Assembly (NCBI GenBank): GCA_002844335.1
Contig: CP019155.1
Coordinates: forward strand, 186,001 to 250,000
Origin: Haloarcula taiwanensis
Lineage (GTDB): Archaea > Halobacteriota > Halobacteria > Halobacteriales > Haloarculaceae
Length of the DNA stretch: 64,000 nt
Direction of reading: 5' to 3'
Positions 47,518-62,563 of the stretch are shown here, piece by piece (positions within the stretch are counted from its first letter, which is position 1; the number at the start of each line of letters is the position of its first letter). The position numbers were made by a program, and so were the translations under genes. The notes beneath the pieces are model-generated. The model worked only from the letters and a program-made list of their open reading frames with translations. It searched no databases and was not told where the DNA came from.

Positions 47518-48852
47518 ATGCTACTCACTGGGACTGTCGTTGCAGATTCCGAGACTGTCCTGCAGGACGGGGCGGTCGTCGTCTCCGGGGACCGTATCGA
47601 GGCTGTTGGTTTACGGGCCGAACTCGAATCGCAGTACGCCGATCACGAACACCAGTCCTACGACGTGTTATTGCCGGGACTCGTCGGCGGCCATATCCAC
47701 TCCGTACAGAGTCTCGGCCGCGGCATCGCCGACGACACGGAACTGCTCGACTGGCTGTTCGACTACATTCTGCCGATGGAAGCCTCCCTGACCGCTGCGG
47801 AGATGGAGGTCGCGGCGAAACTTGGCTATCTGGAAATGATCGAAAGCGGGACCACGACCTGTATCGACCACCTCTCGGTCGCACACGCGGACCGCGCTTT
47901 CGAAGCAGCGGGCGAGATCGGTATTCGTGGCGTGCTCGGTAAGGTGCTGATGGACCAGCGCTCACCGGACGGCCTGCTAGAGGAGACACAGGCCGCACTG
48001 GACGAGTCTGAGCGCCTTATTCAGCAGTATCACGGTGCCTACAACGACCGGATCCGGTACGCCGTCACCCCGCGTTTTGCCGTCTCCTGCAGTGAGGCCT
48101 GTCTCCGGGGCGTGCGCGAACTGGCGGATAAATACGACGGCGTCCGCATCCACACCCACGCCAGTGAGAATCAGAGCGAAATCGAGACGGTGAAAGAGGA
48201 TACCGGGATGCGCAACATCCACTGGCTCGACGAGGTGGGACTCACCGGCGAGGATGTGGTCCTTGCGCACTGTGTCTGGACCGACGAGAGCGAGCGCGAA
48301 GTCCTCGCTGAGACGGGAACCCACGTCACACACTGCCCGTCATCAAACATGAAACTCGCCAGCGGCATCGCGCCCGTCTGGGACTATCGCGACCGCGGTA
48401 TCAACGTCGCTATCGGCAACGACGGCCCGCCCTGTAACAACACGCTCGACGCATTCACCGAGATGCGACAGGCGAGTCTCCTCCAGAAAGTCGACCAGCT
48501 GGACCCGACGGTGACGCCGGCGGCAGAAATCTTCGAGATGGCGACGCGAAACGGCGCGAAAGCCGCTGGGTTCGAGGAACTCGGCGCGATTCGGGAGGGA
48601 TGGCGCGCTGACATCGTCGGTCTCGATACGGACCTCACGCGCGCGACGCCGCTGCACGACGTGCTCTCCCATCTGGTGTTTGCGGCACACGGCGACGACG
48701 TTCGGTTCACGATGGTCGACGGGAACGTCCTCATGGAACACGGTGACGTAACGACTATCGACGCCGACGCCGTCCGCTCTCGGGCCTCGACGATGGGGCT
48801 GGAGATGGACCTCGAAGACGAGCGCAAGTCCGCACAGGAACAAAAGCCCTGA
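47518..48852 (+). CDS. Amidohydrolase-type deaminase (guanine/S-adenosylhomocysteine deaminase family)
   Basis: A 444-residue metal-dependent deaminase. Metal and substrate motifs: GLVGGHIHSVQSLGRG (near 58), HTHASENQSEIE (near 210), VVLAHCVWTD, CPSSNMKLASGIAPV and IGNDGPPCNNTLD (near 300). This is the ATZ/TRZ and MtaD group, which deaminates guanine, methylthioadenosine, S-adenosylhomocysteine or cytosine. The position beside RidA and Mo hydroxylases suggests a purine deaminase (guanine to xanthine); the substrate is inference. Confidence 0.85.
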   Translation: MLLTGTVVADSETVLQDGAVVVSGDRIEAVGLRAELESQYADHEHQSYDVLLPGLVGGHIHSVQSLGRGIADDTELLDWLFDYILPMEASLTAAEMEVAAKLGYLEMIESGTTTCIDHLSVAHADRAFEAAGEIGIRGVLGKVLMDQRSPDGLLEETQAALDESERLIQQYHGAYNDRIRYAVTPRFAVSCSEACLRGVRELADKYDGVRIHTHASENQSEIETVKEDTGMRNIHWLDEVGLTGEDVVLAHCVWTDESEREVLAETGTHVTHCPSSNMKLASGIAPVWDYRDRGINVAIGNDGPPCNNTLDAFTEMRQASLLQKVDQLDPTVTPAAEIFEMATRNGAKAAGFEELGAIREGWRADIVGLDTDLTRATPLHDVLSHLVFAAHGDDVRFTMVDGNVLMEHGDVTTIDADAVRSRASTMGLEMDLEDERKSAQEQKP

Positions 48853-48872
48853 GTGGCCCTCGGCGGGTGCCC

Positions 48873-49256
48873 TTACTCGCTCGTTGCGATGGCTTCGATT
48901 TCGACGCCGACACCCTTTGGCAGGTTAGCGACCTCAACTGCGCTCCGGGCCGGCGGCGCGTCGTCGAAGAAGCCGGCATATGTGTCGTTCATCGCCTCAA
49001 AATCGTCGATATCGTCGAGATAGACGGTCACCTTCAACACATCGCTCATTGCAAGCCCCTCGGAAGCCAGCACCGCTTCGACGTTCGATAGCGCCTGTTC
49101 GGCCTGTGTCGCTATCGGTTCGTCGTCGAGCAGGTCGCCGTCGGGCGTCATCGGAATCTGGCCCGCGGTGAACACGAGCGAGCCGTTCGTCGTTGCCTGA
49201 CTGTACGCGCCGACCGCATCGGGAGCATCGGTCGTGCTGAGTATCCGTTTCATCAA
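48873..49256 (-). CDS. ridA: RidA family enamine/imine deaminase
   Basis: A 127-residue YjgF/UK114 family protein. GAYSQATTNGSLVFTAGQIPM (residues 16-36) and PPARSAVEVANLPKGVGVEIEAIA (near 100-124) are the family signatures, including the Arg that binds the carboxylate of 2-aminoacrylate-like intermediates. Such genes often accompany purine and pyrimidine catabolism, where they hydrolyse reactive imines or aminoacrylates. Convergent with the deaminase (20-base gap). Confidence 0.93.
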   Translation of the reverse strand: MMKRILSTTDAPDAVGAYSQATTNGSLVFTAGQIPMTPDGDLLDDEPIATQAEQALSNVEAVLASEGLAMSDVLKVTVYLDDIDDFEAMNDTYAGFFDDAPPARSAVEVANLPKGVGVEIEAIATSE

Positions 49257-49285
49257 TCTGGAGTTCCACCATCAGCATCTTAAAT

Positions 49286-49903
49286 TCACAGGCCGTCGCG
49301 GCGGTCGGTGAACTCGGCACGGTCTGCAGCAGTGTCGATATCCCAGTGGATGCCAGGGTCTGCAACATCGATGAACGCTGTCTCCTCGTTGGCTTCGATG
49401 ACGTCTCGGCCACCGCGGTCGCCGGAGACCGAGGCGAGGGCATCGAAGTGGCAGCCGTCGAAAAGCACCGGATTACCCCGCTGCCCATCGTATTTGGGAA
49501 CGACAATGCTTGCCGAGCCTGTACGGTACGTTTCGATAAGTGTCTCGATGGTTTCGACGCGTACGAACGGCATATCGCCAAGCAGGAACAGGGCGGCGTC
49601 CCAGTCGGCCGAACGGGCGAACTCGACGCCGTGTCGAACTGATGCACTCTGGCCTGCCGCGTAATCGCTGTTGTGGCGGTGGGACAGCGAGAGTCCATCG
49701 AGCGCCTCAGCGACAGCCTCGTCCTCGTAGCCGAGGACGGCGACAACGTCCGTCAATGATGACTGGCTGGCGGTTTCGGCCACCTGTCGGACGACCGCTG
49801 TTCCGTCGATAGTCGCCAGCAATTTGTTACCCGGTCCATACCGTGCGCTCCGACCAGCGGCGAGGATAACACCGCCGACTCCGGGATGGTCCTGACAGTT
49901 CAT
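49286..49903 (-). CDS. mocA: MocA-like molybdenum cofactor nucleotidyltransferase
   Basis: A 205-residue nucleotidyltransferase of the MocA/MobA fold. GVILAAGRSARYGPGNKLLATIDGTAVVRQ (about 10-38) binds nucleotide; LLGDMPFVRVETI near 100 has the metal Asp; PVLFDGCHFDAL and the GGRDVIE block end it. The MocA family converts Mo-molybdopterin to molybdopterin cytosine dinucleotide, which xanthine-dehydrogenase-type hydroxylases of bacteria and archaea use. Location beside YqeC and the XDH genes supports this assignment. Confidence 0.85.
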   Translation of the reverse strand: MNCQDHPGVGGVILAAGRSARYGPGNKLLATIDGTAVVRQVAETASQSSLTDVVAVLGYEDEAVAEALDGLSLSHRHNSDYAAGQSASVRHGVEFARSADWDAALFLLGDMPFVRVETIETLIETYRTGSASIVVPKYDGQRGNPVLFDGCHFDALASVSGDRGGRDVIEANEETAFIDVADPGIHWDIDTAADRAEFTDRRDGL

Positions 49904-49945
49904 GCTTACCTTCCTCTCGAACCGAGACTGGCTGTTTCCACGAAG

Positions 49946-50731
49946 TCAGCCATCGCTCTCTGCCTCTTGCAGATCTGCTTCTGAGACGACTTCACAGATA
50001 TCGGAGGTGAACGACGTGATGACGCCCTGAGAACACCGCTTCGTCTGTGAAAGCGAGTACGTGAGTACGTCTCTGGCGGTCCGCTGCTGTGGCTCGGTAT
50101 CCGCTTTGTTGATTAACGGTATCACAGACGCCCCGGCTGGCGCGTTTCGGAGGCCACCGTCGGGATGTGTGAGCACTGTTCCGACAGCGTCTGGCGTGAT
50201 CGTCTCGCCAACATTGATATCGGTGATGTCTGCGACCCGCTCCGGCCGATGGACCACATCCGTCGTCAGCGGTTCACCGACGGCGGTGACCGAGGCGACC
50301 GGGACGACGTGGCTGGCCGTGCTCGGGACGACTGGCTCCCCATCTCCAGGTGCTTTGAACTCTCGCCTGCGTGCCCCGTCAGCCTTGATGAGGAGCCAGT
50401 CGAACAGTCCAACACTGGATAGTTGTTCTACTATACTCGCCTCCAATCCGCGAACCTTCCGGTCAACTCGCGCCGGGTCGGGTACTTCCTCGCGAGCGAC
50501 GGCAATTGGTGGGTCGTGTGCTTCGAGGTCAGCGCGCCACGCGTCCGGATCGATGAGCGTCAGCGGCAGGTCAGACGGCGGTGGCATCGCCGTTGTCGTC
50601 GTGTAGCCCACGTCGTACCTCTCGTCGGTGCCCTCCACCGTCAACTGTCCCATCGCGGTTTTCTTTCCGCCGGCCCCGACAAAAGCGACAGCGGCGCTGG
50701 ACCCCAAGCCCAGCGCAGCAGCCAGATGCAT
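49946..50731 (-). CDS. yqeC: Selenium-cofactor protein YqeC-like
   Basis: I chose MHLAAALGLG at 50731 (261 residues), because the 28 upstream codons run into the promoter of the divergent tusA. A P-loop-like VAFVGAGGKKTAM (about 15-27) opens the domain; WLLIKADGARRREFKAPGDGEPVVP (near 115-140) is the typical YqeC block; INKAD lies near 210. YqeC is one of the accessory proteins found with SelD and YqeB in selenium-dependent molybdenum hydroxylase systems; its reaction is unknown. Confidence 0.85.
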   Translation of the reverse strand: MHLAAALGLGSSAAVAFVGAGGKKTAMGQLTVEGTDERYDVGYTTTTAMPPPSDLPLTLIDPDAWRADLEAHDPPIAVAREEVPDPARVDRKVRGLEASIVEQLSSVGLFDWLLIKADGARRREFKAPGDGEPVVPSTASHVVPVASVTAVGEPLTTDVVHRPERVADITDINVGETITPDAVGTVLTHPDGGLRNAPAGASVIPLINKADTEPQQRTARDVLTYSLSQTKRCSQGVITSFTSDICEVVSEADLQEAESDG

Positions 50732-50825
50732 ACGGTCGCTCCGCGGAAGACACACAAATAGCTTACCGGGGCAACGGTATGTGGCGGCGATAGTGTTTTT
50801 GTGACATGATGACACACGTACCGGT

Positions 50826-51074
50826 ATGGCTCGCGTAGACGTTCGTGGTGAAATCTGTCCCCGTCCGGCGCTTATCGTCCGACAGGCGCTTTCGGATCTC
50901 GATACCGGTGAGACGCTCGTCGTGCGGGGCGATTACCCCCCCGCTGAAGAGAATCTCCGGAGGATGTGTACGACGCACGGTATCGACGTGACGACAGCGG
51001 AGACCGCTGGCGAGTCCGACGAGTTCGAACTCGAACTCCGGGTGACCGAGATGGCGTCGCTATCGGAGGCCTGA
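50826..51074 (+). CDS. tusA: TusA/SirA-like sulfur carrier
   Basis: An 82-residue protein with the TusA signature VRGEICPRPALIVRQAL; Cys11 is the expected persulfide (or selenopersulfide) carrier. The remainder fits the two-layer alpha/beta fold (TLVVRGDYPPAEENLRRMC). The selD start lies two bases after its stop, and the promoter is shared with divergent yqeC (94 bases). TusBCD relatives are encoded in the same island, so TusA may pass sulfur or selenium to them or to SelD. That role is inference. Confidence 0.9.
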   Translation: MARVDVRGEICPRPALIVRQALSDLDTGETLVVRGDYPPAEENLRRMCTTHGIDVTTAETAGESDEFELELRVTEMASLSEA

Positions 51075-51076
51075 GT

Positions 51077-52114
51077 GTGGGAACCGACGCTCCGACTGCG
51101 GACGACGAGACGACGCGCCTGACGGAGTACACCGAACTCCACGGCTGTTCCTGCAAAGTCGGCCAGAGCGACCTCGATTCGCTGCTCGCCGATGCCGGCC
51201 TCACCGGTGAGAACGACTCGTTGCTGTTCGGCATCGGCGAGGACGCCGCTGCCCGGAAACTTACCGACGATATCGCGTTGGTTTCGACGGTGGATTTCTT
51301 CACACCTATCGTCGACGACCCGTACGACTTCGGTCGTATCGCCGCTTGTAATGCCGCTAGCGATGCGTTCGCTACAGGTGCGGTCGAGAACATCGACTGT
51401 CTGGTCACTCTCGGCCTCCCGCGAGACGTAACCGAGAGCGCAGCGCCCATCCTCGCCGGCATGGCTGACGCGCTGGACACGATGGACGGCGTCATCGCTG
51501 GTGGCCACACCATCATGAGTCCGTGGCCCTTCGCCGGCGGAGCGATTTCGGCGACAGCACGACCCGACGCCCTGCTCACTTCACACGGGGCTAGCCCCGG
51601 CGACCGACTCTACCTGACCAAACCGCTCGGGACGCAACCGGCGATGGGGGCGACCCGCGTAACCGACGAGCAGTTCGTTGAGATAGTCACCGACGCCGCT
51701 GAGCGCCCGCTCGACAGTATTGCTTCGGAAGCCATCGCGTGGATGACGACTACGAACCGGGACGCAATGGTCGCGTGCCGCGAATATGCAACCGCCGCAA
51801 CCGACATTACCGGCTTCGGCCTCGCCGGCCAGAGCCGCGTGATGGCCGCCCGCTCGAATGTCGGTATCGAACTGACGCACCTCCCGGTCATCGCAGGAAC
51901 GCCCGGTCTCTCGACGCTTTTCGGATACGGGCTAACTGACGGAGAGAGCGCGGAGACCAGCGGCGGCCTGTTCGTCTCCGTCCCACCGGCTGCGACTGCT
52001 GCCGTCGAATCGGCGTTCGACGACGCCGGCGTGTTCTATCGAGCTGTCGGCCGCGTTACGGCCGGACGCGGCGTCACGATTGACGACCCGACTATCGAAG
52101 AAGTTCGTTCATAA
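51077..52114 (+). CDS. selD: Selenide, water dikinase (selenophosphate synthetase, SelD)
   Basis: The frame is open further upstream but overlaps tusA; I chose the GTG at 51077 (345 residues). Catalytic loop: LHGCSCKVGQ with Cys24 and Lys27, equivalent to Cys17 and Lys20 of E. coli SelD. VSTVDFFTPIVDDPYDFGRIAACNAASDAFATG is the ATP-binding, metal-binding block, and GGHTIMSP and TDITGFGLAGQSRVMA follow. It makes selenophosphate from selenide and ATP. No selenocysteine or selenouridine gene is visible here; neighbours point to selenium in a molybdenum hydroxylase. Confidence 0.93.
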   Translation: MGTDAPTADDETTRLTEYTELHGCSCKVGQSDLDSLLADAGLTGENDSLLFGIGEDAAARKLTDDIALVSTVDFFTPIVDDPYDFGRIAACNAASDAFATGAVENIDCLVTLGLPRDVTESAAPILAGMADALDTMDGVIAGGHTIMSPWPFAGGAISATARPDALLTSHGASPGDRLYLTKPLGTQPAMGATRVTDEQFVEIVTDAAERPLDSIASEAIAWMTTTNRDAMVACREYATAATDITGFGLAGQSRVMAARSNVGIELTHLPVIAGTPGLSTLFGYGLTDGESAETSGGLFVSVPPAATAAVESAFDDAGVFYRAVGRVTAGRGVTIDDPTIEEVRS

Positions 52115-52131
52115 CGTCAAGTAGGAGCCTG

Positions 52132-53712
52132 CTACCGCAACCGGAGCACTGCCTCCAGCACCCCACCGCCGAGACACAGTGCCTTGTCGGAAATCTTCGT
52201 TGGGTCGACAGACTCGCCACGGGGATCGACGTCGCCGAGCTTAGTGCCCTCACTGACGCTGAGGCCGTCGTGAACGAGGCCGCGAACCAGCCCGTCTATC
52301 TCTGTCTCGACCGGCAGTTCACCGACCGTGCCGACCACATCGCCGGCTGTGACAGTATCGCCGATGGCGACCGTGGGGGTCCACTCACCGTCGGTCGGTG
52401 CACGGAGCACCCGCTCGTGGGTGTAGCCGCGCCGCTCGCCGGGCTCGCCGTCGTACTCGCTCGCTGCCCCCTCGTAGAACACCCGGCCGAGCTCGTGCCC
52501 GCGGTCGGTCTCGACGACCGCGTCCACGTCCTCGCCGGCCTCGAAACCAGGTCCCATCCCAATCACTACGTCGGCGTCTCCCCGTCGCGTGCCGGTGTCG
52601 AACGTCCCTTTCGCCATGATAGCATCGACGAGGACTGCAGCGTTGAGTTCGTCGGCGACGGCCGCCTCAGGGTCGACGAGGACCGGGACGACATCGTCGG
52701 CAAGCAGTTCAAGCGCCTCGTCGATGTCCGCTGCTGCCCGGCCAGTGAGTCCCTCGACCGTCACTTCGTCTTCGTACAGTGCAGCGCCGAAGGCGACTGC
52801 CCGCCGGACTACCGTTGGCTGTTCGACCTCTGTGACGATAACCGGAAAGCCAGCCTGCTGCAGGCGATAGACCACGCCGCTCCCGAGGTCGCCGCCGCCG
52901 CGGACGACGACCAGGTCGTCGAGGTTCAGTCGTGTCGACCGCTTACCGGTGGCGTCGTGGCGGTCCATGGTGACCTCGGAGAGGATCGAGAGCGCGACGG
53001 CGGCCGGGCCGCTCCCGCCGAGGTCGAGTCCAACCGGAGTTCGGACCCGGCTGAGTTCCCGACGGGCGTAGCCCGATTCGGCGAGTGAGTCGAGGACGTG
53101 ATTGGCCTTTGTCTCGCTGGCGACGAGGCCGACGTAGCCGGCCTCACCGTCCAGCGCCGCTGCGACGGCCTCCTGATCGAACGTCCCGCTTCGCGTCGCG
53201 ACAGCCACCGCCGTCTCCGTCCCCATTGGGAGGTCGCCGAGCACGTCGCCGTAGCCGCCGTGAATTACGTCCGTCTCGTCGGGGAACTGCCCCGGATCGG
53301 CGTACGCCTCGCGGTCGTCGACCACGGTGACGGCGTAGCCCAGTCGCTCGGCCAGCGGGGCCAGTTCGACGCCGACGTGGCCGCAGCCAGCGATATAGAG
53401 CCGTGCCTGCCCGCGAACCCGGTCGATGAACACGTCCATCTCGCCGCCACAGACCATTCCCGTGTTGCCGCCGGGTTCGAGTTCGTACGTCCGGACGCCG
53501 GGGTCGTCGGCTCCTGAAAGCACTGACCGGGCGTCCTGTACGGCGAGATGCTCGACCGTGCCCCCTCCGATGGTCCCGTACTCGTCGTCGCCTGTGACTA
53601 TCATCTTGTCCCCTACGTCTCGCGGTGCGCTGCCGTCCTTGCGGACGATAGTCAGGAGTGCTGCCGGTTCTCCCTGCGCGGCCAGTTCGTCGAGCCGTTC
53701 GAACAGACTCAT
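52132..53712 (-). CDS. XdhC-YqeB fusion protein
   Basis: The frame is open further upstream but the natural start is MSLFERLDEL at 53712, overlapping tusB by four bases; 526 residues. Residues 1-245 are XdhC/CoxI: IVRKDGSAPRDVGDKMIV, GGGTVEHLA, and a Rossmann motif YIAGCGHVGVELAPLAERLG at 106-125. Residues 262-526 are YqeB: DLVVVRGGGDLGSGVVYRLQQAGFPV (266-291), VIGMGPGFEAGEDVD and a biotinyl-like VAIGDTVTAGDVVGTVGE near 475. XdhC inserts sulfurated Mo cofactor into XDH; YqeB marks selenium-dependent hydroxylases. The fusion joins these two steps. Confidence 0.9.
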   Translation of the reverse strand: MSLFERLDELAAQGEPAALLTIVRKDGSAPRDVGDKMIVTGDDEYGTIGGGTVEHLAVQDARSVLSGADDPGVRTYELEPGGNTGMVCGGEMDVFIDRVRGQARLYIAGCGHVGVELAPLAERLGYAVTVVDDREAYADPGQFPDETDVIHGGYGDVLGDLPMGTETAVAVATRSGTFDQEAVAAALDGEAGYVGLVASETKANHVLDSLAESGYARRELSRVRTPVGLDLGGSGPAAVALSILSEVTMDRHDATGKRSTRLNLDDLVVVRGGGDLGSGVVYRLQQAGFPVIVTEVEQPTVVRRAVAFGAALYEDEVTVEGLTGRAAADIDEALELLADDVVPVLVDPEAAVADELNAAVLVDAIMAKGTFDTGTRRGDADVVIGMGPGFEAGEDVDAVVETDRGHELGRVFYEGAASEYDGEPGERRGYTHERVLRAPTDGEWTPTVAIGDTVTAGDVVGTVGELPVETEIDGLVRGLVHDGLSVSEGTKLGDVDPRGESVDPTKISDKALCLGGGVLEAVLRLR

Positions 53713-53954
53713 ACGAAGCTCTTGACCTCCTGTTCGACGAGGCACTCGACCACGTCGTCGTAGGATATCCGGTCGATGTCCGGCGGGAGTGAAACGCCAC
53801 GCACGTCTACGTCTCTCGCGACCGCTGAGACGGAGGCGTCGATATCCGGCGTGAGGTAGACGCCGTCCTGAATCAGCACGACGCGTGCCTCGGGGTCCCC
53901 GGCGGCGGTACGCAGCCCGATTTCCGCCATCGGTTTGTCGATGAGATACAGCAT
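53709..53954 (-). CDS. tusB: DsrH/TusB-like protein
   Basis: An 81-residue protein with the DsrH pattern MLYLIDKP, VVLIQDGVYLTPDI and the C-terminal DRISYDDVVECLVEQEVKSFV. In E. coli TusBCD forms a hexamer that takes persulfide sulfur from TusA. Start overlaps the downstream XdhC-YqeB gene (ATGA) and follows tusC with a two-base gap. Confidence 0.82.
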   Translation of the reverse strand: MLYLIDKPMAEIGLRTAAGDPEARVVLIQDGVYLTPDIDASVSAVARDVDVRGVSLPPDIDRISYDDVVECLVEQEVKSFV

Positions 53955-53956
53955 TG

Positions 53957-54310
53957 TCAGAAGTCCAGTGTTCGGTCGGCGTCACGGATGCGGGCGGTAA
54001 CGCGGTCGTCCGACCAGACGGCCACGTCGTCGTCGATTTCGCTCTTTTCGATACTGCGCTCGGCCATCGCCGCGCCGTCCGCGACCATCTGTCCGTCCTG
54101 TTCTTCCAGATCGGCGACATGCCCGCTCATGTTGAGCGCGTTGCGGTCGACGGCCTCCCGAGCGCCGTACACGCCGTCCTGTGTGAATATCACGGTCACG
54201 TCGTGCATGTCGAAGCCGGCCGCGATACCACGGGCGGCGCGCAGCCCCTCCGGGATATGGACACGTCCACACGGCGCACGGGTAAGCAGGACGACGACAT
54301 CCTGTTTCAT
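53957..54310 (-). CDS. tusC: DsrF/TusC-like protein
   Basis: A 117-residue DsrE-fold protein: VVVLLTRAPCGRVHIPEGLRAARGIAAGF, then VTVIFTQDGVYGAREA. It lacks the second Cys of TusD, as is usual for TusC, but carries Cys14. Overlaps tusD by four bases (ATGA). Acts as a subunit of the sulfur-relay hexamer. Confidence 0.82.
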   Translation of the reverse strand: MKQDVVVLLTRAPCGRVHIPEGLRAARGIAAGFDMHDVTVIFTQDGVYGAREAVDRNALNMSGHVADLEEQDGQMVADGAAMAERSIEKSEIDDDVAVWSDDRVTARIRDADRTLDF

Positions 54311-54678
54311 AGCGAGACCACCCGGTCGACCTCGCCGATGATGTCCGCAAGGTCCGGCAGCAGTCCGACTTCGACGCCATCGGGGTAGTCGGCGGGCGCG
54401 TCAATGCCGCGTGCGTCGACACAGAGTCCACAGCAGATAACCTCCGCGCCGTCCGCGATAAGTTCCTGAAACTTCTCTGTCGGCATCTCGTCGTACAGCC
54501 CGCTGTCCGAACAGCCCGGCAGGGTCTGGTCCGCGACAGGAACGAGCGCGCCGTCGAGGTAGTGGAAGTAACTCACCTCGTGACCCTGGTCCAGCGCCGC
54601 CCGCCCCAGTTCGTAGGCGGTACGCCACCGCTCACTGTCGAAGGGACCCCCTGTCAGCAGAAAACCGATGTACGCCAT
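54307..54678 (-). CDS. tusD: DsrE/TusD-like protein
   Basis: I chose MAYIGFLLTGGPFDS at 54678 (123 residues); the 33 codons upstream contain the xdh terminator. Catalytic motif GAEVICCGLCVDARGI with Cys86 in the position of the active Cys of TusD, plus Cys82 and Cys83. TusD accepts sulfur from TusA. A TATA box (CTATTAAGA) lies at 54703-54711. First gene of a coupled set tusD-tusC-tusB-xdhC/yqeB. Confidence 0.87.
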   Translation of the reverse strand: MAYIGFLLTGGPFDSERWRTAYELGRAALDQGHEVSYFHYLDGALVPVADQTLPGCSDSGLYDEMPTEKFQELIADGAEVICCGLCVDARGIDAPADYPDGVEVGLLPDLADIIGEVDRVVSL

Positions 54679-54702
54679 ACTGTCGAGGTTTTCCCGACCA
54701 GC

Positions 54703-54711
54703 TCTTAATAG
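54703..54711 (-). promoter_or_regulatory. TATA box of the tusDCB-xdhC/yqeB operon
   Basis: CTATTAAGA on the minus strand lies 25-33 bases before the tusD start, so this operon has its own leaderless promoter after the xdh terminator. Confidence 0.5.
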
Positions 54712-54727
54712 TTTGCTCGACACACCG

Positions 54728-54757
54728 AAAAAACACTCCGTGTGTGATATTACACGG
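54728..54757 (-). terminator. Hairpin plus T-run terminator of the xdh operon
   Basis: On the minus strand CCGTGT (54757-54752) pairs with ACACGG (54743-54738) around an eight-base loop and a T6 run follows (54733-54728), 20-50 bases after the stop of the Mo subunit. Confidence 0.6.
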
Positions 54758-54779
54758 AAGAAAACTGCCCGAAACAAAC

Positions 54780-57260
54780 CTATCTACCATCGGCAGACTG
54801 GTCGTCGAGTGCCGCCTTCAGGTCGTCCGCAGTGAACGGTAGCTCGGTCAGCCGAACGCCGACGGCGTCGCGGATCGCGTTCGAAAGCGCTGGCGGGACC
54901 CCGTTTGTCGGGAGTTCCGCGATAGACTTCGCGCCGAACGGACCCGTGGGTTCGTGTGTTTCCACGAGAATGGTCTCCATTTCTGGGTGGTCCGTCGTCC
55001 GCGGCATCCCGTACTGTCGAAAGCCGAGTACTTCGGGGTTCCCGTCCTCGTCGAAGGTCAGGTCGCCGCTCGTGGCGTATTCGAGGCTCATGTGCTCACC
55101 GCCCTCAATCTGGCCTTCGACCAGCGCGGGGTTGATGGCGACGCCGCAATCCGCCGCGAACACCAGTCTGTTGAGTTCGTACTCGCCGGTCTCCGTATCG
55201 ACAGTCACGTCGACGAACTGCGCACCGTACGGCGGTGGACTCTCGTCGGTCGAGTGGTTGCCGTCCCCGAGGATGTGTTCGCGCTCGTCGTCGCCGTAGG
55301 CGGCCTCGTAGCCGATCTCTGCCAGCGAGACGCGGCTCCCGGTCTGCTCGCTGTACACGCCGCCGTCGCCGGTGTCGAGCGCTTCCGGGGGCTCGTCGAG
55401 CAGTTTCGACCCCCATTCCAGCACCCGTTCTTTCGCGTCTTCGGCGGCCTTCTTCACCGCTCGACCGCTGATGTACGTCGTCGAGGAGGCGTACGCGCCG
55501 TAATCGAACGGCGTCAGGTCGGTGTCGGCGGCGATGACGACGACATCGTCCGGCGTGCAGCCCAGCACCTCTGCGGTAATCTGGGAGAACATCGTGTCCG
55601 CGCCCGTGCCGGTGTCGACGCCGCCGACCTGCAGGTGGAAACTCCCGTCCTCGTTCATCTGCACCTGTGCCGCGCCGAGTTCCTTTCCCGCGACGCCGCT
55701 TCCCTGGGCGATGAGCGCCATGCCGACCCCGCGCTTGCGGTGGTCCTCGTCAGGCTGTTCGAGGTCGTCGTAGCCAATAGCTTCCTTGCCGCGCTTGACG
55801 CACTCGCGGATGCCACACGAGCGAATCGTCCGGGTGAACCGGTCATCGTCTTTCAGAATGGCGACGCTTCGGTCGCGGTCACCCTCCCGAACCGCGTTCT
55901 GGAGACGGAACGCGATGGGGTCGAAGTCGAGGCGGCGGGCCACCTCGTCCATGTGTGCCTCAACGGCGAAATGGCCCTGCGGCGCGCCGTACCCTCGCAT
56001 GGCCGCCCCCATCGGAAGGTTCGTATGCACCACATCACCGGAAAAGCGGACGTTCGGGACGCGTGGATAGAGCGGGAGCGGCTTCGTTCCGACGTTGTTC
56101 GCGACGGTCATACCGTGGGTCCCGTAGGCCCCTGCGTTCGACAGCGTATAGAGGTCCATTGCCTCGATGTCGCCGTCGTCAGTCACTGCGGTCTGCATCC
56201 GCATCCGCATCGGATGTCGAAAGCGAAGCGCGGTGAACTCCTCCTGTCGGCTCATCTCCAGTTTGACCGGCCGGTCGGCTGCCAGATGCAGTGCGAACGT
56301 TATCGGCTCGATTGCCATCTCCTGTTTTGACCCGAATCCAGCGCCAATTCGCGGTTTCTTCACCCGCACGTCACGGATGGGAATGTCGAACAAGTGGGCT
56401 ATCTGGCGACGGGTGTGAAAGGGGACCTGCGTCGCTGTGATGAACGTGTGCCGGTCGTCCTCGTCCGTGTACGCGATGGTCGTGTGCGGTTCCGGAACGC
56501 AGTGGGACTGGTACGGTGTCTCCCACTCTGTCTCGATGACGTGCCGGTCGTCTTCACTCTCCGCTCGTTCGAACGCCGCGTCAACGTCACCGAGTTCCCC
56601 TTCGAAGTGTGATTCGACGTTTCGGCTGTAGTCTGCGCCTGACTGCTTGTTCTCCACGTCGTCGGCTTCGAACAGTTGGGGCGCGTCCTCGTCGAGTGCT
56701 TCTTCAGGATCGAAGACGGCGTCCAGTTCCTGGTACTCGACTTCGACTTTCCGTGCGGCTCGGTCGGCCGTTTCCGGGTCGTCAGCTGCCACTGCGGCGA
56801 CCGGGTCACCGACGAAGCGGACGTGTTCACGCAACACTTTCAGATCCCACGGACTCGGCTCGGGGTAGGACTGTCCCGAACTGGAGTACAGCTTGTCCGG
56901 AACCACGTCGTCGAACGGCGTGATGACGGCGTCGACGCCGTCCATCGCCTCGGCGTCGCTGGTGTCGACTGATTCGACGTAGCCGTGAGGGATGTCACTG
57001 CGAATCACTTTCCCGTGAGCGAGGTCCGGGAACCGGTCCCGGTAGTCCGCCGTGTAGCGGGCCTGCCCGGTGACAATTTTCCGTGCGTCGTCTTTCTCTT
57101 CGTTCACGGTAATCGCGTCGCGCTCGGATTCGGCTTTCCGGTCGGGTTCGCGTGCGATGTCTGCCGCTGCCTCCTTCTCGGCTTCGGCAGACTCCGCTGC
57201 CTCTCTCTCTGTCCTGTCGGGCTGCTCGCCTGTCTCCTGGACCCGGTCGGAATCGCTCAC
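54780..57260 (-). CDS. Molybdenum hydroxylase large subunit, copy B (xanthine dehydrogenase family)
   Basis: I chose the GTG at 57260, which overlaps the stop of the [2Fe-2S] gene by four bases; 826 residues. Residues 1-60 are an acidic disordered tail. Then ARKIVTGQARYTADYRDRFPD starts the a/b hammerhead domain. Molybdopterin contacts: PRIGAGFGSKQEM, GAAMRGYGAPQGHFA, VGGVDTGTGADTMFSQ and TGPFGAKSIAELPTN with the base-catalyst Glu near the end. It hydroxylates an N-heterocycle such as a purine; TGPFGAKS differs from the classic GEPPFFLA of XDH, so substrate is open. Electrons go to the [2Fe-2S] partner. Confidence 0.9.
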   Translation of the reverse strand: MSDSDRVQETGEQPDRTEREAAESAEAEKEAAADIAREPDRKAESERDAITVNEEKDDARKIVTGQARYTADYRDRFPDLAHGKVIRSDIPHGYVESVDTSDAEAMDGVDAVITPFDDVVPDKLYSSSGQSYPEPSPWDLKVLREHVRFVGDPVAAVAADDPETADRAARKVEVEYQELDAVFDPEEALDEDAPQLFEADDVENKQSGADYSRNVESHFEGELGDVDAAFERAESEDDRHVIETEWETPYQSHCVPEPHTTIAYTDEDDRHTFITATQVPFHTRRQIAHLFDIPIRDVRVKKPRIGAGFGSKQEMAIEPITFALHLAADRPVKLEMSRQEEFTALRFRHPMRMRMQTAVTDDGDIEAMDLYTLSNAGAYGTHGMTVANNVGTKPLPLYPRVPNVRFSGDVVHTNLPMGAAMRGYGAPQGHFAVEAHMDEVARRLDFDPIAFRLQNAVREGDRDRSVAILKDDDRFTRTIRSCGIRECVKRGKEAIGYDDLEQPDEDHRKRGVGMALIAQGSGVAGKELGAAQVQMNEDGSFHLQVGGVDTGTGADTMFSQITAEVLGCTPDDVVVIAADTDLTPFDYGAYASSTTYISGRAVKKAAEDAKERVLEWGSKLLDEPPEALDTGDGGVYSEQTGSRVSLAEIGYEAAYGDDEREHILGDGNHSTDESPPPYGAQFVDVTVDTETGEYELNRLVFAADCGVAINPALVEGQIEGGEHMSLEYATSGDLTFDEDGNPEVLGFRQYGMPRTTDHPEMETILVETHEPTGPFGAKSIAELPTNGVPPALSNAIRDAVGVRLTELPFTADDLKAALDDQSADGR

Positions 57261-57826
57261 TGCTCGCCCTCCATGCAGCCGCAGTCGGTGCGTGAACACG
57301 TGGCCTCGGTGGTGACGCCGTCGTCGCTATCGAGTGCCCGTCCACCGTCCGCGGCGACGGCTGTCCCGCTGTCCATCTTTTCGGCGGCGTCCAGCACCGC
57401 TTCGACGATTTTCTTGTAGCCGGTGCACCGACAGAGATTGTCCGAGAGCGCTTCCCGAACCTCCTGTTCGGTCGGGCCCGGGTTCGCTTCCAGTAGCGCC
57501 GTCGAGCGCATAATCATTCCCGGAATGCAAAACCCACACTGGAGCGCAGTATTCTCCACGAATGCCTGTTGCACCGGATGCAGATCGTCCTGTGTACCAA
57601 GCCCTTCGATTGTCTCGACGGATGCGTCCTGCACTTTCGTCAGCGGCTCGACGCAGGCTTTCACCGGCTCCCCGTCGACGTGTACCGTACAGAAGCCGCA
57701 CGCGCCGGTGTCACATCCCCGCTTCGCGCCGGTGTACCCGTTCCGTCGAAGGACATCGAGAAGCGAATCGGATTTCGATGCGTCGACAGTCCGTTCCACA
57801 CCGTTAATTTCCAGTTCGATTTCCAT
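57257..57826 (-). CDS. [2Fe-2S] subunit of Mo hydroxylase, copy B
   Basis: Start at 57826 (MEIELEINGV, 189 residues); MSH three codons earlier is an alternative. The first cluster uses Cys38, Cys43, Cys46 and Cys58 (KRGCDTGACGFC ... ACVEP); the second uses Cys97, Cys100, Cys132 and Cys134 (QCGFCIPG, CRCTGY). After residue 155 there is a Gly/Asp-rich tail with three extra Cys (ATCSRTDCGCMEGEQ, 177/182/184) not present in most relatives. TATA-like CTATTTATC (57874-57882) precedes the gene. Confidence 0.93.
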   Translation of the reverse strand: MEIELEINGVERTVDASKSDSLLDVLRRNGYTGAKRGCDTGACGFCTVHVDGEPVKACVEPLTKVQDASVETIEGLGTQDDLHPVQQAFVENTALQCGFCIPGMIMRSTALLEANPGPTEQEVREALSDNLCRCTGYKKIVEAVLDAAEKMDSGTAVAADGGRALDSDDGVTTEATCSRTDCGCMEGEQ

Positions 57827-57950
57827 ATGGCTCATCAGCTCGCTGGCTATGTCAGGTACGTGACGAACAGAACGATAAATAGCTATCGCGGATTTGCGAT
57901 ATGGCACGCCGCCACACCGGGTTTTGCCGTGACTGGCACTCCGTCCCGAG

Positions 57951-60401
57951 TCAGGGGTTGCGCTCGTCCAGCTGTGCCTTGATTTTCTCGGCGGTAATGG
58001 GCATCTCCCGGACACGGACGCCGACGGCGTCCCGGACGGCATTTGACAGCGCGGGCGGGACTGTGTTCGTCGGGACTTCGGCGACCGATTTCGCGCCAAA
58101 CGGCCCGGTCGGTTCGTGGGTCTCGACCAGAATGGACTCGATGGGCGGCGTCTCAGTCGCCGGCGGCAGGCCGTACTCGTCGAAATCAGCTACCTCTGCC
58201 CGTCCCTCGTCGTCGAGCGTGATGCCCTCGCTGACGGCCATCTCGTAACTCATGTGATTCGCGCCCTCGATCTGGCCCTCGGCCATGCCGGGGTTGATGG
58301 CGACACCGCAGTCGACGGCGACGACCAGTTTATGAACTTCGAACTCGCCGGTGGTCTCATCCACCGTCACGTCGGCGAACTGCGCAGCGAACGGCGGGGG
58401 ACTCTCTTCGGTGCAGTGGCTCCCCTTCCCTAAGATGTGTTCGCGCTCGTCGTCGCCGTAGGCGGCCTCGTAGCCGATGTCTTCGAGTGTGACCGAATCG
58501 CTGCTGGCCTCGCTGTACACGGTCCCGTCGCCGGTTTCCAGCGCCTCGACTGGCTCCCCAAGCAGTTTCGATCCCCAGTCGAGAATCCGCGCTTTCGCAT
58601 CCTCAGCGGCCTTCTTGACGGCCATGCCGCTGATGTACGTCGTCGAAGAGGCGTAGGCCCCGTAGTCGAAGGGCGTTACATCAGTATCGGAGGATTTGAC
58701 GATTATGTCGTCCTCGTCACAGCCCAGCACCTCGGCGGCAATCTGGAGGAACGCCGTGTCAGCGCCCGTCCCGATGTCGACGCCGCCGACCTGCAGGTGG
58801 AAACTCCCGTCCTCGTTCATCATTATCTGAGCGGCCCCGAGTTCGTCGCCAGCGACGCCGGTCCCCTGTGCGGATAGTGCCATCCCGATGCCGCGGTGCA
58901 GGTGGTCCTCGTCGGGCTGTTCGAGGTCGTCGTAGCCGATGGCGTCCTTTCCGCGCTCGATACACTCGTCAAGGCCACACGAGCGGATACGGCGGTTCGC
59001 CCCCTCGCCGCCCATCATCCCCGCGATCTCGTCGAGGTCGCCGACTTCCATGTGATGCCGCCGCCGGAATTCGATGGGGTCGAGACCGAGGTCGCGGGCC
59101 ACCTCGTCGAGATGGCCTTCCAGCGCGAGCGTGCCCTGTGGCGCGCCGTAGCCCCGCATCGCGCCGGTCTGTGGCGTGTTCGTGTGGACGATGTCCGCCT
59201 CGAAGCGGGCGTTGGGGACCTTCGAGTACAGCGGCAGGGGCTTGCTGCCGACGTTGCCCGCGACAGTCATGCCGTGGCTTCCGTACGCGCCGGTGTTCGA
59301 CAGCGCGTAGATGTCGATTGCCTCGATGTCGCCGTCGTCGGTGACGGCGGTCTTCGCTTTGACTTTCATCGGATGGCGCGACCGCATCGCGTAGAACTCC
59401 TCCTCGCGGCTGGCCTCGTACAGGACCGGGCGGTCGGTGGCGAGCGAGAGCGAGAGCGGAATCGGCTCGACGACCATCGCCTGTTTCCCGCCGAAACCGC
59501 CGCCGACGCGGGGTTTCTGGACGCGGATGTCACGGATGGGGATGTCGAACAGGTGGGCGAGTTGTCTCCGGGTGTGGTTGGGAACCTGTGTGCTGGTGAT
59601 GAGGACGTGGCGGTCGTCCTCGTTCGTGTACGCCAACGAGGTGTGTTTCTCGACGTTGGCGTGGGACTGCCGGATTGTCTCCCATTCGGTCTCGTGGACA
59701 TGGGTCTCGCCGTCGAGCGCCGCGTCCACGTCGCCCAGTTCGCCCCCGATATGTGCCATCCGGTTGCGGTCGTAGTCGTGGCCGACAATTTCGTTTTCTA
59801 CCTCGCCGTCCTCGAACAACTGCGGCGCGTCGTCGTCGAAGGCCTCCTCCGGGTCAGTGACGTAGTCGTCCTCCTCGTAGGACACCTCGATAGCCTCGGC
59901 GGCGGCGGACGCGGTCGCCCGGTTTTCGGCTGCGACGGCGGCAATCGGGTCCCCGATGTACCGGACGTGTTCGTTCAGCACGTGCATGTCCCACGGGCTC
60001 GGTTCCGGATAGGACTGTCCGGCGCTGGTGTATTTTGCGTCCGGCACTGCGTCGGATTCGGGTGTCAAGACCGCGTCGACGCCGTCCATTGCCTCGGCTT
60101 CACTCGTGTCGATGTCGGTCACGCGGCCGTGTGGGATGTCGCTCCGGACGACCGCCGCATACGCGAGATCTGGATATTGTTCCTCGTAGTCGGCGGTGTA
60201 CTTCGCCTGTCCGGTGACGAGCTTCCGGTCGTCGTACTTTTCTGTCCGGTGGGAGACACTGGCCCGTTCGTCGGGTGCCTTGTCGTTGTTCTCGGGTTCG
60301 TCCCATTCGAGCGGGTGCTCTTCGGACTGCCCATCCTCGACAGCCTCGGACTGCGAGGCCGTCCCCCCGTCGGCCGTGGGTGTCTCGTCGTCGCTACTCA
60401 T
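57951..60401 (-). CDS. Molybdenum hydroxylase large subunit, copy A (xanthine dehydrogenase family)
   Basis: I chose ATG at 60401, overlapping the [2Fe-2S] stop; 816 residues. Acidic tail 1-60, then DDRKLVTGQAKYTADYEEQYPD. Motifs: PRVGGGFGGKQAM, GAMRGYGAPQGTLA, VGGVDIGTGADTAFLQ and TGPFGAKSVAEVPTN. It resembles copy B over the whole length, with FGGKQ (classic) instead of FGSKQ. Both lack an FAD subunit gene beside them. It should act on a related N-heterocycle or the same substrate with another partner. Confidence 0.9.
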   Translation of the reverse strand: MSSDDETPTADGGTASQSEAVEDGQSEEHPLEWDEPENNDKAPDERASVSHRTEKYDDRKLVTGQAKYTADYEEQYPDLAYAAVVRSDIPHGRVTDIDTSEAEAMDGVDAVLTPESDAVPDAKYTSAGQSYPEPSPWDMHVLNEHVRYIGDPIAAVAAENRATASAAAEAIEVSYEEDDYVTDPEEAFDDDAPQLFEDGEVENEIVGHDYDRNRMAHIGGELGDVDAALDGETHVHETEWETIRQSHANVEKHTSLAYTNEDDRHVLITSTQVPNHTRRQLAHLFDIPIRDIRVQKPRVGGGFGGKQAMVVEPIPLSLSLATDRPVLYEASREEEFYAMRSRHPMKVKAKTAVTDDGDIEAIDIYALSNTGAYGSHGMTVAGNVGSKPLPLYSKVPNARFEADIVHTNTPQTGAMRGYGAPQGTLALEGHLDEVARDLGLDPIEFRRRHHMEVGDLDEIAGMMGGEGANRRIRSCGLDECIERGKDAIGYDDLEQPDEDHLHRGIGMALSAQGTGVAGDELGAAQIMMNEDGSFHLQVGGVDIGTGADTAFLQIAAEVLGCDEDDIIVKSSDTDVTPFDYGAYASSTTYISGMAVKKAAEDAKARILDWGSKLLGEPVEALETGDGTVYSEASSDSVTLEDIGYEAAYGDDEREHILGKGSHCTEESPPPFAAQFADVTVDETTGEFEVHKLVVAVDCGVAINPGMAEGQIEGANHMSYEMAVSEGITLDDEGRAEVADFDEYGLPPATETPPIESILVETHEPTGPFGAKSVAEVPTNTVPPALSNAVRDAVGVRVREMPITAEKIKAQLDERNP

Positions 60402-60948
60402 CGCAGCCACCTCCGCAGCAGCGGGTCGACTCGTTCCCATTCGGCGGCACAGTGGCCGAGTGGCCGCCGTCGGCGGCGACCGACTGCGCCCCGCGCATTC
60501 GCTCTGCCGCGTCGAGCACGGCTTCGACCGGCTTCTGATACCCGGTGCAGCGACAGACGTTGTCGTCTAGCGCCTCCCGGACCTCCCGCTCGGTTGGGTC
60601 TGGGTTCGAATCCAGTAGTGCCACCGCCTGAATAACCATTCCTGGGATACAGAACCCGCACTGGACGGCGAAGTTGTCGACGAACGCCTGCTGGACCGGG
60701 TGCAGGTCGTCCTGCGTCCCGAGCGCAGCGACGGTCTGTATCTCACTCCCATCGGCGTCCACTGCGGCCATTCCGCAAGCCATCCGGACGTCGCCGTCAA
60801 CGAACACCTTCGATGCGCCGCAGGTTCCGCCGTCACAGCCACATTTCACGCCGATGTGACCGTGCTGTCTCAATACCGTCGCCAGGTCGTCCGCCGACCC
60901 GGCTTCGACTGTCGTCCGCTCGCCGTTGATTGTGAGTTCGATGTCCAC
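60394..60948 (-). CDS. [2Fe-2S] subunit of Mo hydroxylase, copy A, missing one canonical Cys
   Basis: GTG start at 60948 with a GGAGGG element upstream; 184 residues. The first cluster motif reads KCGCDGGTCGAS: Cys38, Cys43 and Cys58 are kept, but the third canonical ligand (Cys46) is Ser. An extra Cys36 lies two residues before Cys38. The second cluster is normal (Cys97, Cys100, Cys132, Cys134). The tail ends STRCCGGGCDE (three Cys). The DNA reads clearly, so the change is not a frameshift. TATA-like sequence at 61021-61028. Confidence 0.9.
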   Translation of the reverse strand: MDIELTINGERTTVEAGSADDLATVLRQHGHIGVKCGCDGGTCGASKVFVDGDVRMACGMAAVDADGSEIQTVAALGTQDDLHPVQQAFVDNFAVQCGFCIPGMVIQAVALLDSNPDPTEREVREALDDNVCRCTGYQKPVEAVLDAAERMRGAQSVAADGGHSATVPPNGNESTRCCGGGCDE

Positions 60949-61020
60949 AGAGGTCCCTCCAGTTTTCGGTATGCGATACGCACACGCGCCTCTTAGTGAA
61001 CAACTGTACAGCACTCTCTC

Positions 61021-61028
61021 ATATATGT
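61021..61028 (-). promoter_or_regulatory. Probable TATA box of the xdh operon
   Basis: ACATATAT on the minus strand, 73-80 bases before the GTG at 60948, would leave a leader of about 45 bases, long enough for the GGAGGG ribosome binding element before the GTG. Confidence 0.4.
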
Positions 61029-61181
61029 ATGCTTCACAGGTGCGTGATCGCAATATTGCCAGAAGAAATCACGGCCACGGCCCACTACAAGGCACTAGAC
61101 TGACACAGCTACGACAGACGTGCGGGGTAATGTGTGGTATGTGCCATATCTGTGACAGATACTCTCTGTGACTGGACCCGC

Positions 61182-62414
61182 TCATTCGGCGGCCTTCGCC
61201 TGCACGGCGTTCAGCAGTACCTCTGCTCCGGTGACGATGTCATCCCACTCGGTAAACTCGCTCTCGCGGTGGCTAATCCCGTCGACGCTCGGGACGAAAA
61301 TCATGCTCGTCGGGGCTATCTTGTTGAGGTAGTTCGCATCGTGGCCTGCGCCACTGACCAGCCGTGTGTACTCACAGCCGACCGTCTCGGCGGCCTCGAC
61401 GACCGTGTCGATGCAGTCCTGATCGAACGGGTCCGCATCGACTCGCATGATTTCCTCGATCTCGTATTCAAGGCCTTCGCGCTCGGCGGCGTGGGCAATC
61501 TCTTCTCTGATCTGTTCGACAGCCGCATCGACAACGGCATCGTCGTACGAGCGGAAATCGAGCGTGAAATCGACCGTCTCGGGGATGACGTTGATGGCGT
61601 TTGGCCAGACGTCGACGCTGCCGACCGTGCCGACGAGGTCCGTGCCTTCGGTCGCTGTGATTCGCCGCACAGCGCGGGTTACGTCCGCCGTCGCCACGAA
61701 GGCGTCGTGGCGCATATCCATCGGCGTCGGGCCGGCGTGGTTCGCCTGCCCCTCGAAGGTGACGTTCAGCCATGCAAAGCCGAACACGCCTTCGACAGCG
61801 GCGACTGGGATGTCCTGCTGTTCGAGAAACGGGCCCTGTTCCACGTGCATCTCAAAGTAGCAGTGGATGTCGTCGGCTTCACAGGGCGTTTCGCCCTTGT
61901 AGCCGATGCGTTCGAGTTCGTCGCCGAACCGCTTCCCGTCCTTGTCCTCGCGCTCGTACGCGTAGTCGAGATCGAAAATATCACAGTAGACGCCGCTGCC
62001 GAGCATATCCGGCTGAAAGCGGACGCCCTCCTCGTTACTCCAGGCGACGACCTCTAGCGGGCGTTCGGTCGTCACCCCGGCGTCGTTGAACGCCTCAATG
62101 ACTTCCAGTCCACCGAGGACGCCGATAACGCCGTCGTACCGCCCGCCGCTGTACTGGCTATCGATGTGCGACCCGAACAGGACCGGCGCGGCGTCCTCCA
62201 CCGCTCCGTCCCGCCGACCGAAGATGTTGCCCATCGTGTCGATACGGACCTCCAGCCCGGCCTCGCGGAACCACTCGACCAGCGTGTCCCGGGCCGCCTT
62301 GTTCTCGTCGGACAGGCTCGGCCTGTTCACGCCGCCTCGTTCCGTCGCGCCGATCTCGTTGAACGTATCGAAGCGCCGTCTGAACCGCTCGCTGTCGAGA
62401 CTGACCGATGGCAT
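61182..62414 (-). CDS. M20-type allantoate/N-carbamoyl-amino acid amidohydrolase
   Basis: MPSVSLDSERFRRRFD at 62414 (410 residues) is the natural start. Metal site: LFGSHIDSQYSGGRYDGVIGVLGG, then WSNEEGVRF, and HVEQGPFLEQQ; AGHDANYLNKIAPTSMIFVPS near 360-380 is the signature of HyuC/AllC enzymes. They hydrolyse ureido compounds such as allantoate or N-carbamoyl-beta-alanine, releasing ammonia and CO2. Location next to Mo hydroxylases suggests purine or pyrimidine breakdown. Confidence 0.9.
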   Translation of the reverse strand: MPSVSLDSERFRRRFDTFNEIGATERGGVNRPSLSDENKAARDTLVEWFREAGLEVRIDTMGNIFGRRDGAVEDAAPVLFGSHIDSQYSGGRYDGVIGVLGGLEVIEAFNDAGVTTERPLEVVAWSNEEGVRFQPDMLGSGVYCDIFDLDYAYEREDKDGKRFGDELERIGYKGETPCEADDIHCYFEMHVEQGPFLEQQDIPVAAVEGVFGFAWLNVTFEGQANHAGPTPMDMRHDAFVATADVTRAVRRITATEGTDLVGTVGSVDVWPNAINVIPETVDFTLDFRSYDDAVVDAAVEQIREEIAHAAEREGLEYEIEEIMRVDADPFDQDCIDTVVEAAETVGCEYTRLVSGAGHDANYLNKIAPTSMIFVPSVDGISHRESEFTEWDDIVTGAEVLLNAVQAKAAE

Positions 62415-62563
62415 TGGGTAGCTGTTCCGCGGTGTCGTCTTGAAGATTGCGTCGGGGTGGTGCCACACAGATTGACAGACGCAGTGTGGCACGCGCTCGC
62501 CCGCTGTGACACACGGTCGGGACCACCGAAAGAGCCAAACGACCGTTCCGCGAGTCGGCAGAC

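Follow-up and report, generated by a model that had tools for sequence, protein, structure and literature searches.

A trio of genes of the DsrE-DsrF-DsrH (DsrEFH) type was recognized in a gene island for selenium-dependent molybdenum (Mo) hydroxylases in the haloarchaeon Haloarcula taiwanensis. The island lies in a stretch of 64,000 nucleotides (nt), here called the window, which corresponds to bases 186001-250000 of a 525-kb contig of the 3.72-Mb, four-contig genome. The trio stands directly upstream of the gene for XdhC-YqeB, a fusion of a Mo-cofactor chaperone with a selenium-cofactor factor, and this arrangement is confirmed in all 30 haloarchaeal loci compared, which is more than chance. 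It is very probable that the trio is a functional part of the selenium-cofactor cassette. In our judgement, the case is evenly balanced for the fuller reading, a maturation cassette of haloarchaeal selenium-dependent Mo hydroxylases in which a relay of TusA and DsrEFH to XdhC-YqeB replaces the bacterial protein YedF.

The trio is encoded on the minus strand in the order dsrE (54307..54678, 123 amino acids (aa)), dsrF (53957..54310, 117 aa), and dsrH (53709..53954, 81 aa), followed on the same strand by xdhC-yqeB (52132..53712; PF13478 and PF02625; TIGR03309 376 bits, cut-off 220). The dsrE open reading frame (ORF) reaches 54777 (TTG), and the conserved start is the ATG at 54678. The junctions are -4 nt for dsrE/dsrF, +2 nt for dsrF/dsrH, and -4 nt for dsrH/xdhC-yqeB, where the stop of dsrH overlaps the start of xdhC-yqeB; the translational coupling of tusD-tusC-tusB-xdhC/yqeB proposed in the initial annotation is thus borne out. 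The plus-strand pair tusA-selD sits between xdhC-yqeB and yqeC. It encodes a TusA-like carrier with a CPRP motif (50826..51074; PF01206, 1e-16) and the selenophosphate synthetase SelD (51077..52114; TIGR00476 277 bits, cut-off 125), whose GTG start comes 2 nt past the tusA stop in the junction sequence. On the minus strand again are YqeC, a selenium-cofactor marker protein (49946..50731; TIGR03172 191.9 bits, cut-off 73; compare the H. marismortui pNG700 yqeC), and a MocA/YgfJ-like nucleotidyltransferase, a candidate Mo-cofactor cytidylyltransferase (49286..49903; PF12804, 6e-37; TIGR03310 153 bits, below the cut-off 186). For YqeC, whose ORF is open to 50815, the start at 50731 follows the profile match and the annotated H. 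marismortui gene.

The complete minus-strand order is an amidohydrolase, the 2Fe-2S and Mo subunits of hydroxylase 1, those of hydroxylase 2, dsrE, dsrF, dsrH, xdhC-yqeB, and then yqeC, mocA, and ridA. ORFs and Pfam/NCBIfam matches place MocA, YqeC, TusA, SelD, XdhC-YqeB, the TusB/C/D-like trio, and two Mo hydroxylase modules where the initial annotation had them and in the same order. Because tusA and selD are read from the plus strand and all other genes of the island from the minus strand, the island consists of several transcription units, not one. The gap of about 100 nt between the Mo genes and dsrE includes a terminator-like hairpin with a T-run, from which it appears that dsrEFH-xdhC/yqeB may be a transcription unit of its own. 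Sigma-70 promoter scans were set aside as uninformative in archaea.

The distribution of these genes was analyzed in 391 Halobacteria genomes, with YqeB (TIGR03309) and SelD (TIGR00476) counted over their cut-offs. PF04077 recovered only 3 of the 30 true DsrH members and was therefore dropped as too insensitive; model A2, built from haloarchaeal DsrH sequences, was used instead. YqeB, SelD, and DsrH were found in identical sets of 30 genomes, belonging to 9 genera and including 15 from the genus of the window, and in none of the remaining 361, nine of which are of that same genus. The DsrE model matches strongly only together with a YqeB locus; 79 genomes lacking YqeB contain remote paralogs at best (E 4e-7).

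When 20-kb stretches round all 30 loci, the window included, were compared, DsrE-DsrF-DsrH was directly upstream of XdhC-YqeB in every locus, and TusA, SelD, and YqeC were near XdhC-YqeB in every locus as well. The 4-nt overlap of dsrH with xdhC-yqeB is kept in 30 of 30 loci and that of dsrE with dsrF in 29; the tusA-selD spacing is between -14 and +3 nt throughout (30/30). In 24 loci the Mo hydroxylases are immediate neighbours, and in L053, L056, and L058-L061 they are farther off. In these six loci, the Mo hydroxylases or MocA are displaced or missing nearby, and the trio is still beside XdhC-YqeB; thus the trio keeps its place even where the enzymes have moved. For the trio, pairwise distances correlate with those of XdhC-YqeB at r 0.90-0.94 and with those of the Mo subunit at 0.71-0.80. 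Of all the proteins compared, DsrE evolves most slowly, with a mean p-distance of 0.14 (XdhC-YqeB, 0.22). In L059, sequences similar to adenine deaminase and purine permeases, as judged by eye from the translations, are beside dsrE, and an adenine deaminase and a nucleobase permease are annotated near the Haladaptatus locus. Two of the 30 loci (L052 near 723, L062 near 4551) have a further TusA-like ORF, a few kb away from the tusA that is coupled to selD.

The trio shows the architecture of the DsrEFH/TusBCD superfamily, three consecutive subunits with PF02635 twice (DsrE, 3e-19, and DsrF) and PF04077 (DsrH, 24.8 bits, cut-off 24.4). The NCBIfam equivalog cut-offs for TusBCD (TIGR03010/3011/3012) are all missed, with 19.1 against 89.3 bits for TusD, 25.7 against 94.2 for TusC, and 25.4 against 49.2 for TusB, and the names TusB, TusC, and TusD are therefore valid at the family level only. 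To this extent the TusBCD identity given in the initial annotation stands, but the set is not canonical. By hhalign, DsrE is most similar to Escherichia coli YchN (94.9%), then to the C-terminal half of YedF (87.5%), which is the CGxC half, and then to TusD (55%). DsrF matched TusC with 76%, DsrH matched TusB with 60%, and TusA matched the N-terminus of YedF with 97.4%. YedF, through its N-terminal part, is also the best NCBIfam model for TusA, at 35.6 bits against the cut-off of 110; TusA and DsrE are separate genes, not the fused architecture of YedF (TIGR03527). Among solved structures, DsrF matched Allochromatium vinosum DsrF (2hy5_B, 6e-7), DsrH matched Thermotoga maritima TM0979 (3e-7), and TusA matched TM0983 (6e-9). 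The AlphaFold2 model of DsrH has a predicted local distance difference test score (pLDDT) of 94.8, and its best folds in the PDB are TM0979, TusB, and DsrH (2d1p/2hy5). The DsrE model, from 13 close homologs, is of low confidence (pLDDT 58, predicted template modelling score 0.48), and its best fold, YchN (E 1e-4, template modelling score about 0.4), does no more than agree with the sequence comparison. In public annotation, the genes beside yqeB are labelled singly, as DsrE family and DsrH/TusB family.

Enzyme subunits aside, the cysteines invariant in all 30 loci are Cys11 and Cys48 of TusA, Cys24, Cys26, and Cys91 of SelD, Cys82, Cys83, and Cys86 of DsrE, and, in XdhC-YqeB, Cys88 in the XdhC part and Cys513 in the YqeB part. 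Neither DsrF nor DsrH has an invariant cysteine across these loci, and DsrH of the window has no cysteine. The three DsrE residues belong to an invariant CCGLC(x3)RG, in which CGLC (CGxC) is kept in 30 of 30 loci, always alongside SelD (30/30). Alignment by eye puts them in the Cys region of DsrE, with CGxC in place of a single Cys. The pattern would fit a complex in which a single subunit is catalytic, which has been shown for other DsrEFH (PMC13293266). Cys513 of the YqeB part was considered as a haloarchaea-specific acceptor for DsrEFH and ruled out: 48 of 84 bacterial YqeBs share this Cys, which is always present in haloarchaea, while those of E. coli and Enterococcus faecalis lack it. At position 504, a Cys is seen in 69 of the 84 bacterial YqeBs and never in haloarchaea. 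Both positions are close to a highly conserved SDKA motif.

SelD, YqeB, and YqeC all exceed their curated cut-offs in one genome, which identifies the selenium-cofactor trait, and the Mo hydroxylase genes are clustered with YqeB as two adjacent modules in the window. MnmH and SepSecS were found in none of the 30 YqeB-positive haloarchaeal genomes (SelB was not searched), and the view of SelD as an orphan is supported; the assignment of the island to the SelD/YqeB/YqeC trait in the initial annotation holds. The initial annotation also suggested looking for YqeB, SelD, and TusBCD in the absence of the tRNA target. This co-occurrence was found: DsrC/TusE is present in 0 of the 30 genomes, as is MnmA over the cut-off, with only weak sub-threshold PP-loop matches. 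Positive controls gave matches in the MnmH, SepSecS, DsrC, and MnmA searches. With none of the four detected in the 30 genomes, the known tRNA role of TusBCD and the known roles of SelD in the selenocysteine and selenouridine pathways are unlikely for this system.

Outside haloarchaea, about 84 bacterial loci were inspected: 80 from a GTDB scan with a YqeB alignment, and those of E. coli, Peptoclostridium, Collinsella, and Enterococcus. The 80 are the nearest to E. faecalis YqeB and mostly from Bacillota, other phyla being thinly sampled. The initial annotation expected a TusBCD neighbourhood in SelD-YqeB genomes; it is conserved in the haloarchaea with YqeB (30/30) and absent from those without, but at the sensitivity used a recognisable DsrE, DsrF, or DsrH was near YqeB in 0 of the about 84 bacterial loci. 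A search with PF04077 likewise found DsrH in 0 of 40 bacterial genomes, a weak negative since the probe catches just 3 of 30 true members. YedF is found at 39 of the about 84 loci; in E. faecalis, the order is selD-yedF-DUF3343-yqeC-yqeB. YedF is a TusA-DsrE fusion, known as a selenium marker of bacteria and reported to be absent from archaea (PMC5322559). A sample of 139 genomes of the phylum yielded no full-length YqeB from outside the class Halobacteria. A YqeB-like match from Thermomicrobium roseum was rejected, as it is in a molybdate-transport neighbourhood with neither SelD nor DsrE annotated.

In the proposed mechanism, separate proteins would take the place of bacterial YedF: TusA, whose gene is coupled to selD, and a complex of DsrE, DsrF, and DsrH, whose genes are coupled to xdhC-yqeB. 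TusA would hold selenium or sulfur as a per-selenide or per-sulfide on Cys11 at the SelD step, and the atom would pass to the CGxC site of DsrE. DsrE would sit in a heterohexamer-type complex, in which DsrF and DsrH would play a structural part, and would hand the atom to the Mo cofactor on XdhC-YqeB, so that the terminal ligand becomes Mo=Se or Mo=S. Both MocA and YqeC may assist, and the finished cofactor would go to two purine-hydroxylase-type enzymes. The observations themselves are the gene content, the exact co-occurrence, the coupling, the conserved cysteines, and the failure to detect canonical clients; that a complex forms, which element it carries, which way the atom moves, and what accepts it are what we infer here. 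In the relay from TusA through DsrEFH to XdhC-YqeB of the initial annotation, the direction and the choice of sulfur or selenium were likewise inferential. That selenium is the element carried by DsrEFH to the Mo cofactor on XdhC-YqeB as terminal ligand, which would make the trio a dedicated selenium carrier complex, is suggested tentatively and with some doubt. The strongest pointer to a transfer at XdhC-YqeB rather than at SelD is that the trio overlaps xdhC-yqeB while TusA is coupled to selD. Known chemistry agrees with such steps. Persulfide exchange between TusA and DsrEFH runs through one DsrE cysteine (PMC13293266), Rhodobacter capsulatus XdhC holds the Mo cofactor during replacement of an oxo ligand by sulfur, so that the XdhC-bound cofactor is the sulfuration site (PMC2997495), and growth of Clostridioides difficile on xanthine and urate needs yqeB and likewise selD (PMC11448449).

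The coupling of tusA with selD in 30 of 30 loci can also be read the other way. DsrEFH and TusA could work upstream of SelD in a YedF-like manner, collecting and reducing selenium (from selenite or selenotrisulfides) and giving selenide to SelD, with YqeB alone performing the final selenium transfer. Haft and Self took the SirA-like family to act ahead of selenophosphate synthesis (PMC2276186), and selenium redox chemistry was proposed for the CGxC of YedF (PMC5322559). Furthermore, the H. marismortui and Haladaptatus neighbourhoods read contain no annotated selenocysteine lyase, and another selenide source would thus be needed. This explanation is nevertheless somewhat unlikely, because DsrEFH is locked by the 4-nt overlap to xdhC-yqeB and not to selD in 30 of 30 loci. 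It is also conceivable that DsrEFH carries sulfur, making Mo=S on XdhC, which YqeB and SelD then exchange for selenium or which is used when selenium is scarce. The characterised TusA/DsrEFH systems known to us move sulfur (PMC13293266, PMC3397948, PMC4175335), and R. capsulatus XdhC is sulfurated by a cysteine desulfurase (PMC2997495). The trio, however, never occurs without YqeB and SelD in the 391 haloarchaeal genomes, which XdhC-type sulfuration alone would not require, and we consider a sulfur carrier improbable. Halorussus salilacus, another haloarchaeon, has an annotated XdhC/CoxI protein in which no YqeB half was matched.

The cassette is on secondary replicons in several strains (e.g., pNG700) and may move as a unit, and the trio could then be a passenger that is carried along by linkage and serves another purpose (tRNA thiolation or general sulfur redox). 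This is very improbable: the overlapping genes are kept in 30 of 30 loci over 9 genera with DsrE evolving slowest, the trio is retained when other neighbours leave, and neither TusE nor MnmA was found. Several points weigh against the preferred relay to XdhC-YqeB. Coupling of TusA with SelD and of DsrEFH with XdhC-YqeB, on opposite strands, is no proof that an atom is exchanged between them, selenium and sulfur cannot be told apart from sequence, and the putative role of DsrEFH in a selenium-cofactor system is deduced from the genes. The exact co-occurrence is partly the co-inheritance of one cassette and not independent of linkage. The relay is not universal, since bacteria including E. coli have the trait genes without adjoining DsrEFH, and in roughly half of the YqeB loci from bacteria even YedF is absent from the stretch read. 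To our knowledge, YchN, the nearest homolog of DsrE, has no assigned function.

The two hydroxylases and the remaining neighbours suggest a context of purine catabolism. The Mo-binding subunit of hydroxylase 2, of the xanthine dehydrogenase family, is at 54780..57260 (minus; MoCoBD_1, MoCoBD_2, Ald_Xan_dh_C), with its 2Fe-2S subunit at 57257..57826 (minus; Fer2, Fer2_2). For hydroxylase 1 the Mo-binding subunit is at 57951..60401 (minus; MoCoBD domains, Ald_Xan_dh_C; 661 bits to the XdhA-like NF043082, below the cut-off 780) and the 2Fe-2S subunit at 60394..60948 (minus; Fer2, Fer2_2). Neither module has a recognised gene for a flavin adenine dinucleotide (FAD)-binding subunit in 49286-62492, unlike E. 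coli xdhABC. A hydrolase of the allantoate amidohydrolase/carbamoylase family is encoded at 61182..62414 (minus; TIGR01879 426 bits, cut-off 204), an amidohydrolase of the 5'-deoxyadenosine deaminase family at 47518..48852 (plus; NF005557 706 bits, cut-off 522), and a RidA-family hydrolase at 48873..49256 (minus; TIGR00004 151 bits, cut-off 106). In the window, ridA alone is between mocA and the deaminase gene (48852-49286), and the gap is likewise short in L036, L039, and L040; in H. marismortui, a phnD-phnE-type ATP-binding cassette (ABC) transporter is inserted between mocA/ridA and the deaminase gene (L065 18464-21498). The second-best SelD-linked match of Haft and Self, pNG7234, is a phosphate-transporter subunit suggested to be a selenate transporter (PMC2276186), and it probably comes from this transporter region.

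The contig carries a third DsrE-family gene, with low similarity to the island DsrE, at a distance of about 143 kb (G000:C2:96682-97017; L063 about 9683-10018). Elsewhere in the window, a gene pair at 42320-44754 matches H. marismortui RdfA (rod-determining factor) and an archaea-specific protein related to structural maintenance of chromosomes (SMC) proteins in position and order, with nadE close by. The gene at 25642-27816 encodes a protein of 724 aa that has three CBM35/CBM6 repeats for carbohydrate binding, and glycosyltransferase, sulfatase-family, and polysaccharide-biosynthesis genes surround it at 10.7-32.7 kb.

The SelD-YqeB-YqeC island of H. marismortui, with its TusA neighbour, was described by Haft and Self and by Zhang et al. 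in 2008 (PMC2276186, PMC2432076). TusA beside SelD was listed there as pNG700 246720-246968 (PMC2432076) and as pNG7238 (PMC2276186). The pNG700 island has the same MocA, YqeC, TusA, SelD, XdhC-YqeB, and two Mo hydroxylases as the window, and its XdhC-YqeB is 93% identical. The DsrEFH trio is unnamed in the published descriptions that were searched, though it lies inside a 1-kb gap between the genes they list, and no description of DsrEFH in a selenium-cofactor system was found in the open-access literature. Thus, of the Tus set that the initial annotation took to be undescribed in this system, DsrEFH remains so in the open-access literature, but TusA had been reported. The base island with TusA (2008) and YedF as a selenium protein are known, and the DsrEFH trio in the haloarchaeal cassette appears to be new. 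Among the known selenium pathways, the least understood is the one by which selenium-dependent Mo hydroxylases acquire their selenium, with selenophosphate not established as the source (PMC11448449). If the trio does carry selenium to the Mo cofactor, it would be the first DsrEFH specific to selenium and would supply the final step so far missing from the maturation of these enzymes. As the carrier set overlaps the gene of a Mo-cofactor chaperone and no other use of SelD or the complex was detected, the loading step is directly testable, with a concrete suspect for loading selenium onto the metal. The trio may also hint at the role of YedF in bacteria and serve as an additional marker when the trait is annotated in archaeal genomes.

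E. coli TusBCD shares the gene order D-C-B and the family with the haloarchaeal set, and the DsrH model fits TusB; the haloarchaeal set differs in missing the equivalog cut-offs, in having no TusE or MnmA found, and in a CGxC where TusD has a single Cys. The DsrEFH types I and II of sulfur oxidisers and sulfate reducers also have three subunits, TusA alongside, and a catalytic Cys on DsrE only, as predicted for the haloarchaeal trio by sequence, but the latter goes with a Mo-cofactor chaperone and not with the Dsr pathway, and no DsrC was found. T. maritima TM0979 (DsrH-like) and TM0983 (TusA-like), the best solved-structure matches, come from a genome that served as a control without a SelD match. 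With YedF (TIGR03527), the haloarchaeal proteins share the TusA part (97.4%), the DsrE part (87.5%), the CGxC, and the company of SelD, YqeC, and YqeB, whereas TusA and DsrE are unfused in haloarchaea and DsrF and DsrH are additional.

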